A stretch of DNA of 26,777 nucleotides, from IMG/VR virus record IMGVR_UViG_3300028610_000649, positions 1 through 26,777 of that record; one strand, given 5' to 3'. The first letter of the stretch is position 1. Each line of letters opens with the position of its first letter. Position numbers and translations under genes: made by a program. The notes below the pieces were generated by a model. It saw only the letters and a program-made list of their open reading frames with translations. It was not told where the DNA came from and searched no databases. The DNA is from a virus. Of this stretch, positions 2,756-10,263 are shown one piece after another.

Positions 2756-2828
2756 TGACTCCGGTGGGAGTCGAACCCAACGTTACAAGATTGAAAGTCT
2801 TGCGTCCTAACCATTAGACGACGGAGCC
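2756..2828 (-). tRNA. tRNA-Glu (anticodon TTC)
   Basis: A 73-nt cloverleaf on the minus strand. The acceptor arms GGCTCCG and CGGAGTC pair over 7 bp with one G-U. The D-arm contains the conserved AATGGTTAGG, the anticodon stem CAAGA/TCTTG encloses loop CTTTCAA, giving anticodon TTC (Glu), the variable loop is TAACG, and the T-loop is TTCGACT with stem GGG/CCC plus T-A; the outermost T-stem pair is a T-C mismatch. The CCA end is not encoded. It sits between two small genes and would be excised from the operon transcript by host processing. Confidence 0.88.
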
Positions 2829-5006: not shown

Positions 5007-5741
5007 TTACCGGGCGCGGGTGGCAGAAGCTTCCTCTTCATCATTCACACGCTCAATGCCGTTATTCTTAGTAGCGGCAAACTTCTCTACCTCATCCCGA
5101 ACTCGTTCAAGCTTCGGAAGATCGGTAAAGGGCTCCGAGCACTTAGTTACAACGGGAACGTGCCAACCGTAGTCACGCCGTTGAATATAACGGTTTTTAA
5201 GCGTACAAGGAATAGGACCATGCGGCTCGACCCCAGTTGCTTCCGCCTTCTCTCGACTGAGAGGAAGGAACGGTCGCAGCTTACCAGATTCCCGCTGGGC
5301 AGATTTGTTTCCCATGAAGAGTTCATAGAAATTCCCAGTGCTACGCTCAAGGACCAAGAATGAAGGCCCATACATACACCCAGAGTTAGACTCCTGTGAG
5401 AGAAGCCTGATGCGCTCAAACTCGGGCAAATCCCTATCATAGACCGCGATAATAGCATCACGATCCCGCATATCCAACGCCTTAGCACGTACTACCAACG
5501 GCAGAATGTCAATCTCAGCGCCTAAGTCAAGAATCTCTTCACCGCCAGGTTGGGGTACGCCCCAACGACCAGGATTGATTTTTCCAGTGTCAACAAACTT
5601 GCCCTTTGTGACCAATTGAATCCTTTGCAGGAAATCGGTCCCCTTAGTAAGTTCATCAAGTTGATCGTCGGACACAAGTTCGACGCTCGGAAGTTGGTCA
5701 GCGTCAAAAGGAATCAAACTCGTCATTTTCTCTTTAGCCAT
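5007..5741 (-). CDS. Conserved-looking phage protein of unknown function, 244 aa
   Basis: The frame runs upstream to 5861, but the start at 5741 (MAKEKMTSLIPF) avoids overlapping the parB-like gene and has GGAG upstream. The protein has an acidic N-terminus, then a compact region with FVDTGKINPGRWGVPQPGG, IDILPLVVRAKALDM and CMYGPSFLVLERSTGNFYEL, and an acidic, disordered-looking tail. No signal peptide. I do not recognise the family. It is cotranscribed with a ParB-like gene next to the replication region, and no single-strand DNA-binding protein is evident elsewhere in the window, so a DNA-binding or replication accessory role is possible but unproven. Confidence 0.7.
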   Translation of the reverse strand: MAKEKMTSLIPFDADQLPSVELVSDDQLDELTKGTDFLQRIQLVTKGKFVDTGKINPGRWGVPQPGGEEILDLGAEIDILPLVVRAKALDMRDRDAIIAVYDRDLPEFERIRLLSQESNSGCMYGPSFLVLERSTGNFYELFMGNKSAQRESGKLRPFLPLSREKAEATGVEPHGPIPCTLKNRYIQRRDYGWHVPVVTKCSEPFTDLPKLERVRDEVEKFAATKNNGIERVNDEEEASATRAR

Positions 5742-5757: not shown

Positions 5758-6660
5758 TCACATGTTGTTGCGGTCTTTTTTCCGCAAGTCTGCCTGCTCC
5801 TCTTCCTGTACGTGTTGCAGAGCGAGTCTTTCTTTTTGCTCTGCCACCGCGTCAGGATCAAGATGCAGTACCCAATCTAAACACAAACGCCACCCGTCCA
5901 TAGGTGTCTTCGCTTTCATCCGTGTTAAAAGCTCAGCACCAGTCGCAGGAGTTCCGACCTCCGCTATAAGAACCCTCATCTTACGTAGATGTGGCACAGG
6001 GTCAATAAAAGAGCGGTAGTAGTCCTCCATACGTCCTGTTTTCAACGCTTCCCTGAAATGCCGAACTCTTTTCCTGATAATTGGTAGAAACTCTCCTGCT
6101 GGGATTACCACTGCTTGTGGCAACAGTTCCTTCTGTATGGCCGGCGGAACCTTAGCAATCTCATGTGCCACTGAGATTGACATTTGCCCCCGCCGCACAG
6201 CCGTGCTTGCTTCGGGACAAAGCCTAGTAATCTTCAGCATCTTCCTCACCCAAACCGGGCTCTTCTTGATAGTTCGCGCCATTTCGCCAACTGTCATTTC
6301 CCCCTCTTCCTTGATAATGCGCCATAATTGACGTGCAAAGTCAATCGGGTCAGTCTCCAATCTAACGGCGTTGGTCTGGACCTGAGCGATCAGCACCTCC
6401 GTGTCAGATAGCTCACGAACGAGGCAGGGAACGGTTTCGTGGCGCAGCTCCCGGCAGCAGTTATAACGATAGAAGCCATCCACTACGTCATACATGCCCC
6501 CTGAAGCCGGTCGTATCAAAAGAGGCTGCCACAAACCATGAGCTTGGATTGAATCCTTCAATTCTCGATATTCTACTGTGCGCTTGTCTACTGGACGAAG
6601 CTGAATCCTGCACTCTCGCAAGCTCTCAAGTTTAATGTGCGCCACCCGATTATCAACCAT
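5758..6660 (-). CDS. ParB-like protein
   Basis: The N-terminal domain fits the ParB/Srx fold: box I GLWQPLLIR (42-50), the DGxxRY equivalent of the ParB catalytic/CTP region (DGFYRY, 61-66), and AQVQTNAVRLE (92-102), which corresponds to the ALIENLQR region. A helix-turn-helix follows at about 122-143 (MTVGEMARTIKKSPVWVRKM). The second box is DGFYRYNCCREL rather than the GERRxRA form of chromosomal ParB, as in many phage and plasmid relatives. The C-terminal half is basic, then Glu/Gln-rich. AGAGGA lies 7 nt before the ATG. No ParA partner is present, so DNA binding, nicking or transcription control is as likely as partitioning. First gene of a two-gene operon reading away from the inverted-repeat region. 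Confidence 0.82.
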   Translation of the reverse strand: MVDNRVAHIKLESLRECRIQLRPVDKRTVEYRELKDSIQAHGLWQPLLIRPASGGMYDVVDGFYRYNCCRELRHETVPCLVRELSDTEVLIAQVQTNAVRLETDPIDFARQLWRIIKEEGEMTVGEMARTIKKSPVWVRKMLKITRLCPEASTAVRRGQMSISVAHEIAKVPPAIQKELLPQAVVIPAGEFLPIIRKRVRHFREALKTGRMEDYYRSFIDPVPHLRKMRVLIAEVGTPATGAELLTRMKAKTPMDGWRLCLDWVLHLDPDAVAEQKERLALQHVQEEEQADLRKKDRNNM

Positions 6661-6668
6661 TCTTCGTT

Positions 6669-6959
6669 CCTCTACTACCTAATACGGTTCCAAAGTGATT
6701 TTTCGGAAGTGGAATTTTGGTATTTCCCCAATTTTTCTGAAAACGCGCCACAGTTAAGGAGTTAATCGCTTCAGAACCATAGTAGAGAAAATAATATCTT
6801 GTTTTGTATTTCAAATTGACTTTTTGGAATTAACTACTAGAAAGTAACTATATTATTAACTTGTTAGTATATTTAGAACCCCCCATTGATACTAATCTAA
6901 CAAAATACTTAGAATTCACTTCTGAAAAATCACTTTGGAACCGTATTAGGTGGTAGAGG
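6669..6959. repeat. 43-bp inverted repeat enclosing a 205-bp AT-rich spacer
   Basis: The arms are 6669-6711 and 6917-6959; one is the reverse complement of the other at 41 of 43 positions. Each arm reads outward towards a gene (minus: parB-like gene; plus: the endonuclease/primase operon) with the shared core GAACCGTATTAGGT followed by TAGAGG. A further 12-base match (GGGTGGCGCACA) lies beyond the arms, inside the parB-like gene at 6636-6647 and in the plus leader at 6964-6975. The spacer is AT-rich, has a C6 run and a 7-bp inverted repeat (6864-6870/6889-6895), and contains no gene. This region is the only non-coding stretch over 300 bp, at the divergence of two operons; it is a candidate origin, operator or both. 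Confidence 0.92.
6816..6843 (+). promoter_or_regulatory. Possible promoter for the plus-strand replication operon
   Basis: TTGACT (6816-6821) matches five of six bases of the -35 consensus and TAGAAA (6838-6843) matches four of six of the -10 consensus with 16-nt spacing. It lies in the AT-rich spacer, so the transcript would begin before the right arm of the inverted repeat. This is the best candidate I see; the minus-strand promoter for the parB-like operon is not obvious. Confidence 0.35.
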
Positions 6960-7026
6960 CGAAGGGTGGCGCACAAACGAGTTAAGTCGCCGACAACATT
7001 AACTAGCTCTTAACTGGAAAGTAACG

Positions 7027-7515
7027 ATGATTAAGATTCCCTTAACTCAGGGTAAGTTCGCTCGTGTTGATGCTTGTGATTATGACTATTTGATGCAATG
7101 GAAATGGTGTTTCTCCAAAGGCCGTGGCGTTGGTTACGCTGTTCGCACTGACAATGCTAATAGGAAATGTGTGCGTATGCATCGTGTAATCCTTGAGCGG
7201 ATGGGACATGAGGATTTTGAACTAGGGAGTCATATTAACGGAGATGGGTTAGATAACTGTAGATACAATCTTCGACCAGTAACGCAAAAGCAAGCCGCAT
7301 ATAGTCGAAGAATGAGGAAGAACAATACTTCTGGCTATATTGGTGTATACTTTAGGGAAGATATGGGAAAAGGAGTATGGGTCGCTAGCGCACACCAAGA
7401 TGGGAAACAAGTACATCTTGGATATTGGAATGATCCAGTAGATGCGGCGCGTGCTTATAATGAGTTTGTACTGGAACATCGCGGCGAATTTGCAGTTTTG
7501 AATGAGGTAGACTGA
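7027..7515 (+). CDS. HNH endonuclease with AP2-type DNA-binding domain
   Basis: The N-terminal half has an HNH site: MHRVIL (His52), SHINGDGLDN (His69, Asn71, Asn77) and RYNLRPVT. The C-terminal half (about 98-160) is an AP2/ERF-like DNA-binding domain: NTSGYIGVYF, VWVASAHQDGKQVHLGYW, DAARAYNEFVLEH. This combination is typical of free-standing phage homing endonucleases, which cut DNA at a site in phages lacking the gene and are copied in by repair. The stop codon is directly followed by the ATG of the primase gene, with no spacer. GGAAAG lies a little upstream of the start. It is probably a selfish gene inserted in the replication operon rather than a component of it. Confidence 0.92.
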   Translation: MIKIPLTQGKFARVDACDYDYLMQWKWCFSKGRGVGYAVRTDNANRKCVRMHRVILERMGHEDFELGSHINGDGLDNCRYNLRPVTQKQAAYSRRMRKNNTSGYIGVYFREDMGKGVWVASAHQDGKQVHLGYWNDPVDAARAYNEFVLEHRGEFAVLNEVD

Positions 7516-10263
7516 ATGGCTAAGACACTTGAGGCAATTGAAACCTTCTTACACACTCTTGTTGAGCAGGGAAAACATAACAACCCAGACCTTATCTCTT
7601 GGTGGACGCCACAACTTGAGACTCAGGTTTACGTCTCTCCAGAGGGAGGATTCCCAGTAGATGGGAAGCGAAATGCGTGGTCAGACGGGAAAGGTGATAC
7701 GTGGAATCATGTGCGAATCCCATACAATGCTAGCGCAGAGCCTTACTGGAGGGATAGGGAGTTAAACTTCTTACTCGAAGAACACTGTATCTTCATAGGC
7801 ACCACAGGCTGGAATTGGGTCAATCGCGAATCATATTTCGTAGGCTTCGATGTAGATGATATCACGAGTCACGCTCCTGGTGTGGGGATTGATGAGCACC
7901 AGTTGGAGCAAGTTCGTCAAAAGGCCATGGCCCTGCCTTATGTAGACGTGATTAAGTCTACGGGTGGAAAGGGGCTTCACCTCTATGTACGCTTTGATAG
8001 GGAGAATGCCCCTAAAACTCAGAATCATAACGAACATGCTGCCATTGCACGAGCCTTGTTAGGCAAGATGAGCACCGAAGTTGGTTTCGACTTTGGAAGT
8101 CACTTGGATGTGTGTGGAAGCGTCATGTGGATCTGGGGTAAGAAGACTACTCCAGAGAATGAGGGTCATGCTCTGATTAAGAAAGCAGAACAACCCCTAT
8201 CTGCTAGCGACCTGCCAGCTAATTGGAAAGATCATCTTGAGGTATTATCCAGTACGAGTAAGACAAAGATTCGCGTTGTGGGCTATGATGGTGATGGTAA
8301 GAAAGTTGATGAGCAAGATGCATTAGCTGAACTTGCTGCCGCTCGCGTCAAGTACCCACTTAACGAAGTCCATAGGGCTATTCTAAACGACCTAGAACAG
8401 ACAGGCGCCTCAGTTGTATGGGTCGCTGACCATCACCTGGTACAGACTCACACCAAAGCTTTGAAGATCGTTTTCGACAAGTGGGCTGAAGAAGGCCACC
8501 CGATGAAAGGCTTCTATGAGACATTTTCTCAAGGAACCGATATTGGCAAGCCCAATTGCTTCGCCATTCCTGGCCCCAAAGGTTCATGGCTAGTTTATCG
8601 CTTCGGTAAAGGGACAGCAGAGCATAAGCTATGGAGTCAAGATGACGTTGGATGGACGTGGTGCCGCTATAATTGGCAGCCTAACTTGCGACAGGCATCC
8701 TTGGCTCTTGGCGGTAAAGAAAATGAGAAAGAAGGCTTTGTTTTCAACGAGACTCTCTCCGCGTGCAAGGCTGTTGAGAGCATCGGGGCAAAGCTCATCA
8801 TTCCTGAAGGTAATAAATATGAAGGGCGTGAAACCACTCTGAGGCGGCATAAAGATGGCCGTCTAATTGTAGAGCTTGCTAAGTGGGAGGGGGATGAAGG
8901 CTTTGACGATTGGCTTGTGAAGAGTGATCGCTGGATACGTATCTACAACATCAATACTAATCTAGCGGAAGAGGAGCGGGATTACTCTGAATTCAACTCT
9001 GTCGCTCGCTCGATTCGCACCCCGTCAAATGCGGATGCCGGTTGGATGTTACGAATTGGTGGCGATTGGGTTCATTCACCGTATACTAACGTGTCCTGTG
9101 TTCTCAAAGCCATTGCCCCATCAAGTAACACTGTAGAAATCATGGGCACAGCCATTCTCAATCAGTGGGTATTGGTAAACATGCCGTTTCACGAAGAGCA
9201 TCCAGGGGGTAGACAATGGAATTACGGTGCGGCTCAATTCAAATACAAGCCCGCCGACGTAGATGAGCCTCATCACCCTCATTGGGACAGAGTTCTCACC
9301 CACATCGGCTCAGATTTAGATAAAACGATACGAGAAACATCGTGGTGTAAGAAATGGAATATCCACAGTGGTAGGGACTATCTGACCACATGGATTGCTT
9401 GCATGTTTCGTGAACCTTTTGAACCGTTGCCATACTTATTCATCTATGGTGACCAAGGTTGTGGGAAGTCTATTTTCCATGAGGCTCTTTCTCTGTTAGT
9501 AACTGGCGGCGTTGTAAAAGCCGACAATGCGTTGACCAGTCAGGGTGATTTTAATGGGGAGTTAGCAAGTGGTGTTCTCGCAGTTATAGACGAGAAGAAT
9601 ATTGCTCGGGCCGGTCCAGCAGCTTACAACAAGATAAAAGAGTGGACAACAGGCTTAACGCTTGGTATCCATAAGAAAGGTGTAGATGTGTATCAACAAC
9701 GAAACAGTTTGCATTTTGTTCAGCTTGCAAATGAGAGAGACGCTTGTCCAATTATCCCAGGGGACACTCGCATAGTTGTAATCAGTATGAGTGCGTTAAT
9801 TGAAGAGATTCCTAAAGCCGCTCTTTTGAAAGCACTTGAAAAGGAAGCCTCTCACTTTATGAAGACGCTGATGAGCACGCCTATGCCAGAGTCAATGACT
9901 CGTCTCAGGCTGCCTGTAATTGAAACCAACACAAAAGAAGCTTTAATGGAGATGCACAGGAGCCCTCTTGAAGGATTCATTATAGAGCATTGTCATGTGA
10001 AGAATGGCCGGTACACGACGTTGAAAGATTTCTACGAAAGGCTACAGGCCACGTTGTCTCCGTATGAGCGAACTGTTTGGACAAAAGGTAAGATACGGCA
10101 GAACTTGCCGGAGACATTCCCGGTTGGAAACTACACAGGTAACAAAGTTTGCATCGGTAACATAAGTTTCGAGGACGTTAGTGTCCCGGAGAACGGACCA
10201 AAGTTCACCACACAGGGTGGGAAATTGAAATTGACACAAGAGGGAGGGGAAAACAATGAGTGA
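7516..10263 (+). CDS. Primase-polymerase/helicase fusion protein
   Basis: Residues about 80-240 form an archaeo-eukaryotic-type primase (prim-pol) domain: FDVDD with the acidic metal ligands (111-115), STGGKGLHLYVRF (148-160) with the nucleotide-binding His, and DFGSHLDVCGSVMWIWGKK (192-210) with the third acidic/basic region. Residues about 610-780 form a superfamily 3-like helicase ATPase: Walker A GDQGCGKS (645-652), Walker B VLAVIDE (687-693), and a sensor-type strand HFVQLANERDACPI (733-746). The region between has no recognised motif, and the C-terminus may be a DNA-binding domain. Proteins of this layout unwind DNA and make primers for phage or plasmid replication, so this is the central replication protein here. 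It abuts the endonuclease gene upstream and overlaps the next gene by 8 nt. Confidence 0.9.
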   Translation: MAKTLEAIETFLHTLVEQGKHNNPDLISWWTPQLETQVYVSPEGGFPVDGKRNAWSDGKGDTWNHVRIPYNASAEPYWRDRELNFLLEEHCIFIGTTGWNWVNRESYFVGFDVDDITSHAPGVGIDEHQLEQVRQKAMALPYVDVIKSTGGKGLHLYVRFDRENAPKTQNHNEHAAIARALLGKMSTEVGFDFGSHLDVCGSVMWIWGKKTTPENEGHALIKKAEQPLSASDLPANWKDHLEVLSSTSKTKIRVVGYDGDGKKVDEQDALAELAAARVKYPLNEVHRAILNDLEQTGASVVWVADHHLVQTHTKALKIVFDKWAEEGHPMKGFYETFSQGTDIGKPNCFAIPGPKGSWLVYRFGKGTAEHKLWSQDDVGWTWCRYNWQPNLRQASLALGGKENEKEGFVFNETLSACKAVESIGAKLIIPEGNKYEGRETTLRRHKDGRLIVELAKWEGDEGFDDWLVKSDRWIRIYNINTNLAEEERDYSEFNSVARSIRTPSNADAGWMLRIGGDWVHSPYTNVSCVLKAIAPSSNTVEIMGTAILNQWVLVNMPFHEEHPGGRQWNYGAAQFKYKPADVDEPHHPHWDRVLTHIGSDLDKTIRETSWCKKWNIHSGRDYLTTWIACMFREPFEPLPYLFIYGDQGCGKSIFHEALSLLVTGGVVKADNALTSQGDFNGELASGVLAVIDEKNIARAGPAAYNKIKEWTTGLTLGIHKKGVDVYQQRNSLHFVQLANERDACPIIPGDTRIVVISMSALIEEIPKAALLKALEKEASHFMKTLMSTPMPESMTRLRLPVIETNTKEALMEMHRSPLEGFIIEHCHVKNGRYTTLKDFYERLQATLSPYERTVWTKGKIRQNLPETFPVGNYTGNKVCIGNISFEDVSVPENGPKFTTQGGKLKLTQEGGENNE

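Follow-up and report, generated by a model that had tools for sequence, protein, structure and literature searches.

A phage-specific element, probably a promoter/operator cassette, at the heads of divergent parB-like and primase operons in an uncultured virus and its relatives

The window analysed here, meaning the whole 26,777-base stretch of the IMG/VR viral record IMGVR_UViG_3300028610_000649, includes two operons that are transcribed away from each other. The leftward operon is headed by a gene on the minus strand (5758–6660) encoding a ParB-like protein with ParB_N (6e-14) and HTH_ParB domains, while the rightward operon starts on the plus strand with an HNH endonuclease-like gene (7027–7515; phrog_99, 7e-33), followed by its main gene, which encodes a DUF5906/primase-helicase-like protein (7516–10263, plus strand). 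The leftward operon also contains a tRNA gene (2756–2828, minus strand), and an Rfam search of the sequence returned nothing but tRNA. In the nearest relative, L006 (related loci are given as L numbers), the primase is 75% identical to that of the window and the ParB-like protein 67% identical, and the ParB-like protein of a further relative, L004, is 38% identical. The HNH gene varies in these relatives: the primase-adjacent copy in L006 (5539–5998) is interrupted by an in-frame TAG that follows its WKW motif (codon 27) and is likely broken, and the primase-side HNH-like gene of L004 (4051–5025) resembles several tandem copies of an N-terminal part in one reading frame.

At the junction of the two operons lies an inverted repeat with arms of 43 nt, and the coordinates and the two mismatches given for it in a preliminary description of this DNA were confirmed. 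The left arm (6669–6711, minus strand) is the core of an element copy directed towards the parB-like gene and the right arm (6917–6959, plus strand) of one directed towards the HNH/primase operon, with the similarity running inward beyond both cores to give 57 nt at 88% identity (6669–6725 and 6903–6959). The gapped local score of this repeat is 46, compared with 11.8 ± 1.2 for 30 dinucleotide shuffles, and no further copy of the arm was found within the 26.8-kb window record. As had been proposed, the two arms present one control sequence outward, each to its own operon, and a coupling of the two operons is plausible. A 12-mer reported beyond each arm, GGGTGGCGCACA, does match exactly between codons of the parB-like gene (6636–6647, minus strand) and the plus leader (6964–6975, plus strand), but its two occurrences are not in register with the arms, lying 21 nt beyond one and 4 nt beyond the other. 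As the 12-mer was not found in the aligned plus leader of L006, it may be due to chance or represent a relic.

Each copy includes candidate promoter hexamers, judged from the sequence and from alignment with relatives (four-way for the -10-like hexamers). The -10-like hexamer TATTAG is located at 6679–6684 (minus strand) in the left copy and at 6944–6949 (plus strand) in the right copy, with TATTAT as the equivalent in L006, and 18 nt before it stands a -35-like hexamer, TTCCGA in the left copy (6703–6708, minus strand) and TTCTGA in the right copy (6920–6925, plus strand). At the former, a CTTCCG block is common to the window and L006. Read by eye, the sigma-70-like boxes are TTCYGA-18-TATTAG in the window and TTCCGT-17-TATTAT in L006, and a sigma-70 promoter scanner gave no match coinciding with the arms.

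Relatives were collected using a profile built from four primases, which recovered 80 viral loci at approximately 36–55% identity as well as three loci in prokaryote metagenome-assembled genomes (MAGs), two of them Planctomycetota. No match was obtained when the arm DNA and the ParB protein were searched in viral contigs, the 1.8-kb junction against 50,697 phage records, or the primase in plasmids. In most of the recovered loci the ParB-like gene is immediately divergent from the primase gene, and the layout is conserved, with the divergent parB-like/primase junction kept in about 65 related phage loci. After removal of same-sequence junctions, 61 parB/primase junctions remained, some close relatives still being among them, and at 44 of these the inverted repeat scored at least 20, compared with 0 of 487 same-length windows from the same loci. 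The remaining 17 scored below 20, and some of them (e.g. L022) scored higher after corrected boundaries or finer splits. Across the relatives, arm length varies between 17 and more than 150 nt and spacer length between 4 and several hundred nt, and almost every phage has a different arm sequence. The preliminary description had named loss of the repeat from this junction in close relatives as grounds for rejecting its reading, and this comparison found that the inverted repeat is kept while its sequence is changed, so that the reading was not refuted on this count.

Several observations concern individual relatives. L045 features, directly upstream of the primase gene and near the contig start, 47-nt arms that match perfectly as an inverted repeat around a 14-nt spacer (735–842). 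In the L096 record (G027) the arm core AATGGAAAGTATGAT is found again as a second pair at 57819 (minus strand) and 57912 (plus strand), on opposite strands and about 35 kb from the parB/primase junction. Further, in a second subgroup (L051, L061, L073, L078, L096, L097 and L099), many junctions share the palindromic GATTTGATT / AATCAAATC in or beside the arms. A tyrosine integrase was detected in only 2 of 18 records, and we therefore make no claim of a generally temperate lifestyle; the phage record of L034 (G010) holds three tandem tyrosine-integrase genes (41393–43774).

The two arms of a junction are alike within a phage and diverge between phages. About half of the arm sites differ between the window and L006, and 13 sites group the arms by phage, with none grouping them by side and none crosswise. 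The pattern could be resolved by position in 17 phages with compact junctions, for which a profile was made by anchoring each copy on its TAGG. Positions -15 to -5 are identical between the arms in 17 of 17 phages and position -16 in 16 of 17, whereas between the phages this 12-bp stretch (-16 to -5) agrees mostly at only 0.34–0.69. The block at -34 to -29 (xxGAAA) is about 90% identical between arms, TAGGT is nearly constant in all copies of the group, and the linker at -28 to -20 is near random, with an agreement of 0.35–0.59 even within one phage. Two blocks with a drifting linker were likewise seen in L048, L006, L041 and L035. The arms of the window match almost throughout, nearly without a drifting linker, and recent copying may therefore have added to their similarity.

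Copying could in principle account for more than this, as the likeness of the arms might be a by-product of gene conversion or template switching between inverted repeats and not reflect a shared binding site at all. The near identity of the window arms over all 43 nt is what such a process would leave, as are the very long arms of some relatives (76 nt in L041; 47 nt at 100% in L045) and a left arm that in L004 reaches into the parB coding sequence. Wholesale copying of arms would, however, homogenise the linker as well, and the linker separating the two conserved blocks has stayed heterogeneous, for which reason a protein that recognises both arms explains their likeness better. Copying is also at odds with the further copies situated tens of kilobases away at a gene termed X and with the unlinked, non-inverted copies of L086, both described below. 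We regard it as unlikely and largely refuted as the cause of the likeness; it may add to selection, but it cannot replace it.

When whole contigs were examined, relatives had one additional occurrence of the arm, which reads into the beginning of X, a gene family of about 180 aa. This third copy was found in eight phages, namely L031 (19/19 nt), L041, L044, L028, L032, L050, L058 and L086, and the sequence before X resembled the arm of its own phage most closely in six of seven phages. No clear copy was seen before X in L042, L077, L089, L092, L096, L097 and L098. L100 has a degenerate CTGAA-N19-TTTACTGT near its X gene, and a search of the L100 MAG for the core with at most one mismatch returned the two junction copies only. 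X had no match in PHROG and none above threshold in Pfam. The one operon examined is that of L031, where the 7 kb after X include genes for a GpA-type terminase (Pfam 1.7e-31) and for a 603-aa protein of portal-like appearance without a Pfam match, and this position suggests that X is a terminase small subunit. X was not found in the records of the window, L006 and L004, those of the window and L006 being fragments. Overall, one element heads several operons of a genome, with three copies (before parB, primase and X) in relatives and two visible in the partial window record.

Two relatives serve as natural experiments on what the element requires. In L086, parB has relocated to a site about 6 kb distant and no longer forms a divergent pair with the primase gene, and the inverted repeat is absent; even so, parB, primase and X are each preceded by GCGTAAAA, about 11 free bases and GCCTATAGTATG. 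Because L086 keeps the element without the inverted repeat, the functional unit is the single element and not the symmetry, and the symmetry of the switch that the preliminary description had offered as one possible function finds no support. In L048, no ParB was found in the 77-kb and possibly incomplete record with either the family (A3) model or PF02195, and the next gene of the operon faces the primase gene. This phage nevertheless retains a 55-nt repeat, in which two blocks are near-perfect, and thus the arms are independent of a ParB detectable in this record, which may be incomplete.

These observations also bear on another early suggestion, a ParB-like binding site, for which partition or autoregulation would be the possible uses. 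The parB-like gene adjoins the junction in nearly all relatives, its product has a helix-turn-helix that could bind DNA, and the central TTTCAG...CTGAAA dyad of the compact group vaguely resembles parS half-sites. Against this stand the repeat kept in L048 without a ParB detected, the copies upstream of X, and the difference at about half of the arm sites between phages whose ParB-like proteins are 67% identical; additionally, ParB divergence explains nothing beyond what primase divergence explains. We consider ParB binding a very unlikely role for the arms.

The spacer between the arms (6712–6916) is AT-rich and has a C6 run, as first described, and the C6 lies inside a block common to the window and L006. 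A conserved 33-nt spacer block, ATTAACTnGTnnGTAnATTnAGAACCCCCCATT (6855–6887, plus strand), is shared only with L006, the nearest relative, and within the viral collection the 33-nt C6-run block AGAACCCCCCATT was confined to these two. Across the spacer and the plus leader (6752–7015) there are seven TTAACT/AGTTAA boxes, at 6752, 6760, 6830, 6856, 6980, 6999 and 7010, compared with an expectation of 0.62, and none of 1000 shuffles reached seven. L006 has five such boxes (5261–5485), a number reached by one of 1000 shuffles, and several of the boxes occupy equivalent positions in the two phages. In relatives further removed they are few or lacking, and they may serve another protein as binding sites or belong to an origin.

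The boxes, set in an AT-rich spacer beside a primase-helicase gene and in several cases matched in L006, are the support for reading the junction as a replication origin with the arms as symmetric initiator-binding sites. Their scarcity in the other relatives speaks against it, as does the presence of the arm element before X and, in L086, before separate genes. The check by GC skew that had been recommended gave no evidence for an origin, since the skew tracks the coding strand: its sign changes near 6.5–7 kb together with the coding strand and reverses again near 11.9 kb, where genes are convergent. An origin of this kind appears highly improbable, and none is needed for explaining the arms.

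With regard to what reads the element, T7-group phages have one promoter sequence that is repeated within the genome and differs between phages, and the element described here is likewise repeated and phage-specific. In length and general look, the compact form further resembles such promoters, with a variable recognition part followed by TATAGG, and it varies from phage to phage. However, the corresponding polymerase domain (PF00940) was found in 0 of 43 related records, with T7 itself as a positive control at 1e-110, and the use of the element as a promoter by a T7-type RNA polymerase has in our judgement only the slightest probability, resting on a very divergent polymerase, which is conceivable. 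A phage sigma factor was also sought, and PF04542 (sigma-70 region 2) was present in only 2 of 18 records; the 23 nt from the GAAA block to TATAGG in the compact element are unlike sigma-70 spacing. When element divergence was compared with that of neighbouring protein families, none tracked it beyond the primase's own divergence, and no regulator was singled out. The most likely mechanism is host polymerase acting together with a putative phage regulator.

Based on these sequence comparisons, we consider it probable that the arms are back-to-back copies of a phage-specific promoter/operator cassette, read by a factor that is itself probably phage-encoded and that would switch the operons together. 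Each arm would then be one lineage-specific cassette placed directly upstream of an operon, with a third cassette predicted to act before X in relatives with longer records. The two copies face outward and are seen as an inverted repeat because the parB-like operon lies next to the primase operon and is transcribed away from it. If the specificity of the factor drifts between lineages, all copies in one genome would be expected to change in step. Both the promoter/operator role and the recognition by a phage factor are what we infer from the layout and the pattern of divergence. More tentatively, and with less than even confidence, the reader may be a new and fast-evolving phage transcription factor, distinct from ParB, from T7-type polymerases and from recognisable sigma factors, for which the two-block asymmetric element would be a master switch at operon heads across a wide phage family, some apparently of Planctomycetota, with a specificity changing almost phage by phage.

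A literature search found no direct description of this arrangement, and the known parallels are partial. Cluster A mycobacteriophages (L5, Bxb1, Trixie) have short asymmetric operators/stoperators, about 30 per genome and mostly not at promoters (PMC6550527). As in those phages, the element is asymmetric and phage-specific, differs between relatives and changes jointly within a genome; the cluster A sites are matched to the phage's own repressor (PMC6550527), whereas here no repressor candidate was singled out, and in place of some 30 sites oriented with transcription there are at most a few copies per record, two or three in number, located at operon heads and built of two blocks and a linker. 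In cluster K mycobacteriophages, the SAS is a shared 13-mer, GGGATAGGAGCCC, with 11–19 copies per genome, and ESAS pairs, for which a phage-group-specific consensus is reported and protein binding suggested, lie upstream of single genes (PMC3203893). These elements are similarly repeated immediately upstream of particular genes (PMC3203893), but here the copies are placed before operons and nearly every phage has a sequence of its own, and the SAS 13-mer is absent from the window junction and arms. Neither the cluster A nor the cluster K elements match the operon-head layout or the copy number seen here. Cluster O mycobacteriophages have divergent promoters, PL1 and PR2, in one intergenic region together with a repeated motif and a ParB-like protein, but their repeat is a short palindrome that is present 34 times in Corndog and common to members of the cluster (PMC4351075).

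With this analysis, an inverted repeat that looked unique becomes one case of a rule that holds generally across a large group of uncultured phages: two or three operons begin with a control element private to the phage, and this element changes in sequence far more rapidly than the genes that it would control. It also holds a caution, as an inverted repeat between divergent phage operons can represent two promoter copies and not a palindromic site. On the reading preferred here, the element would be a direct readout of regulator specificity, perhaps of immunity groups, and it could be used for predicting operon starts in fragmentary viral contigs and for framing a concrete search for the regulator.
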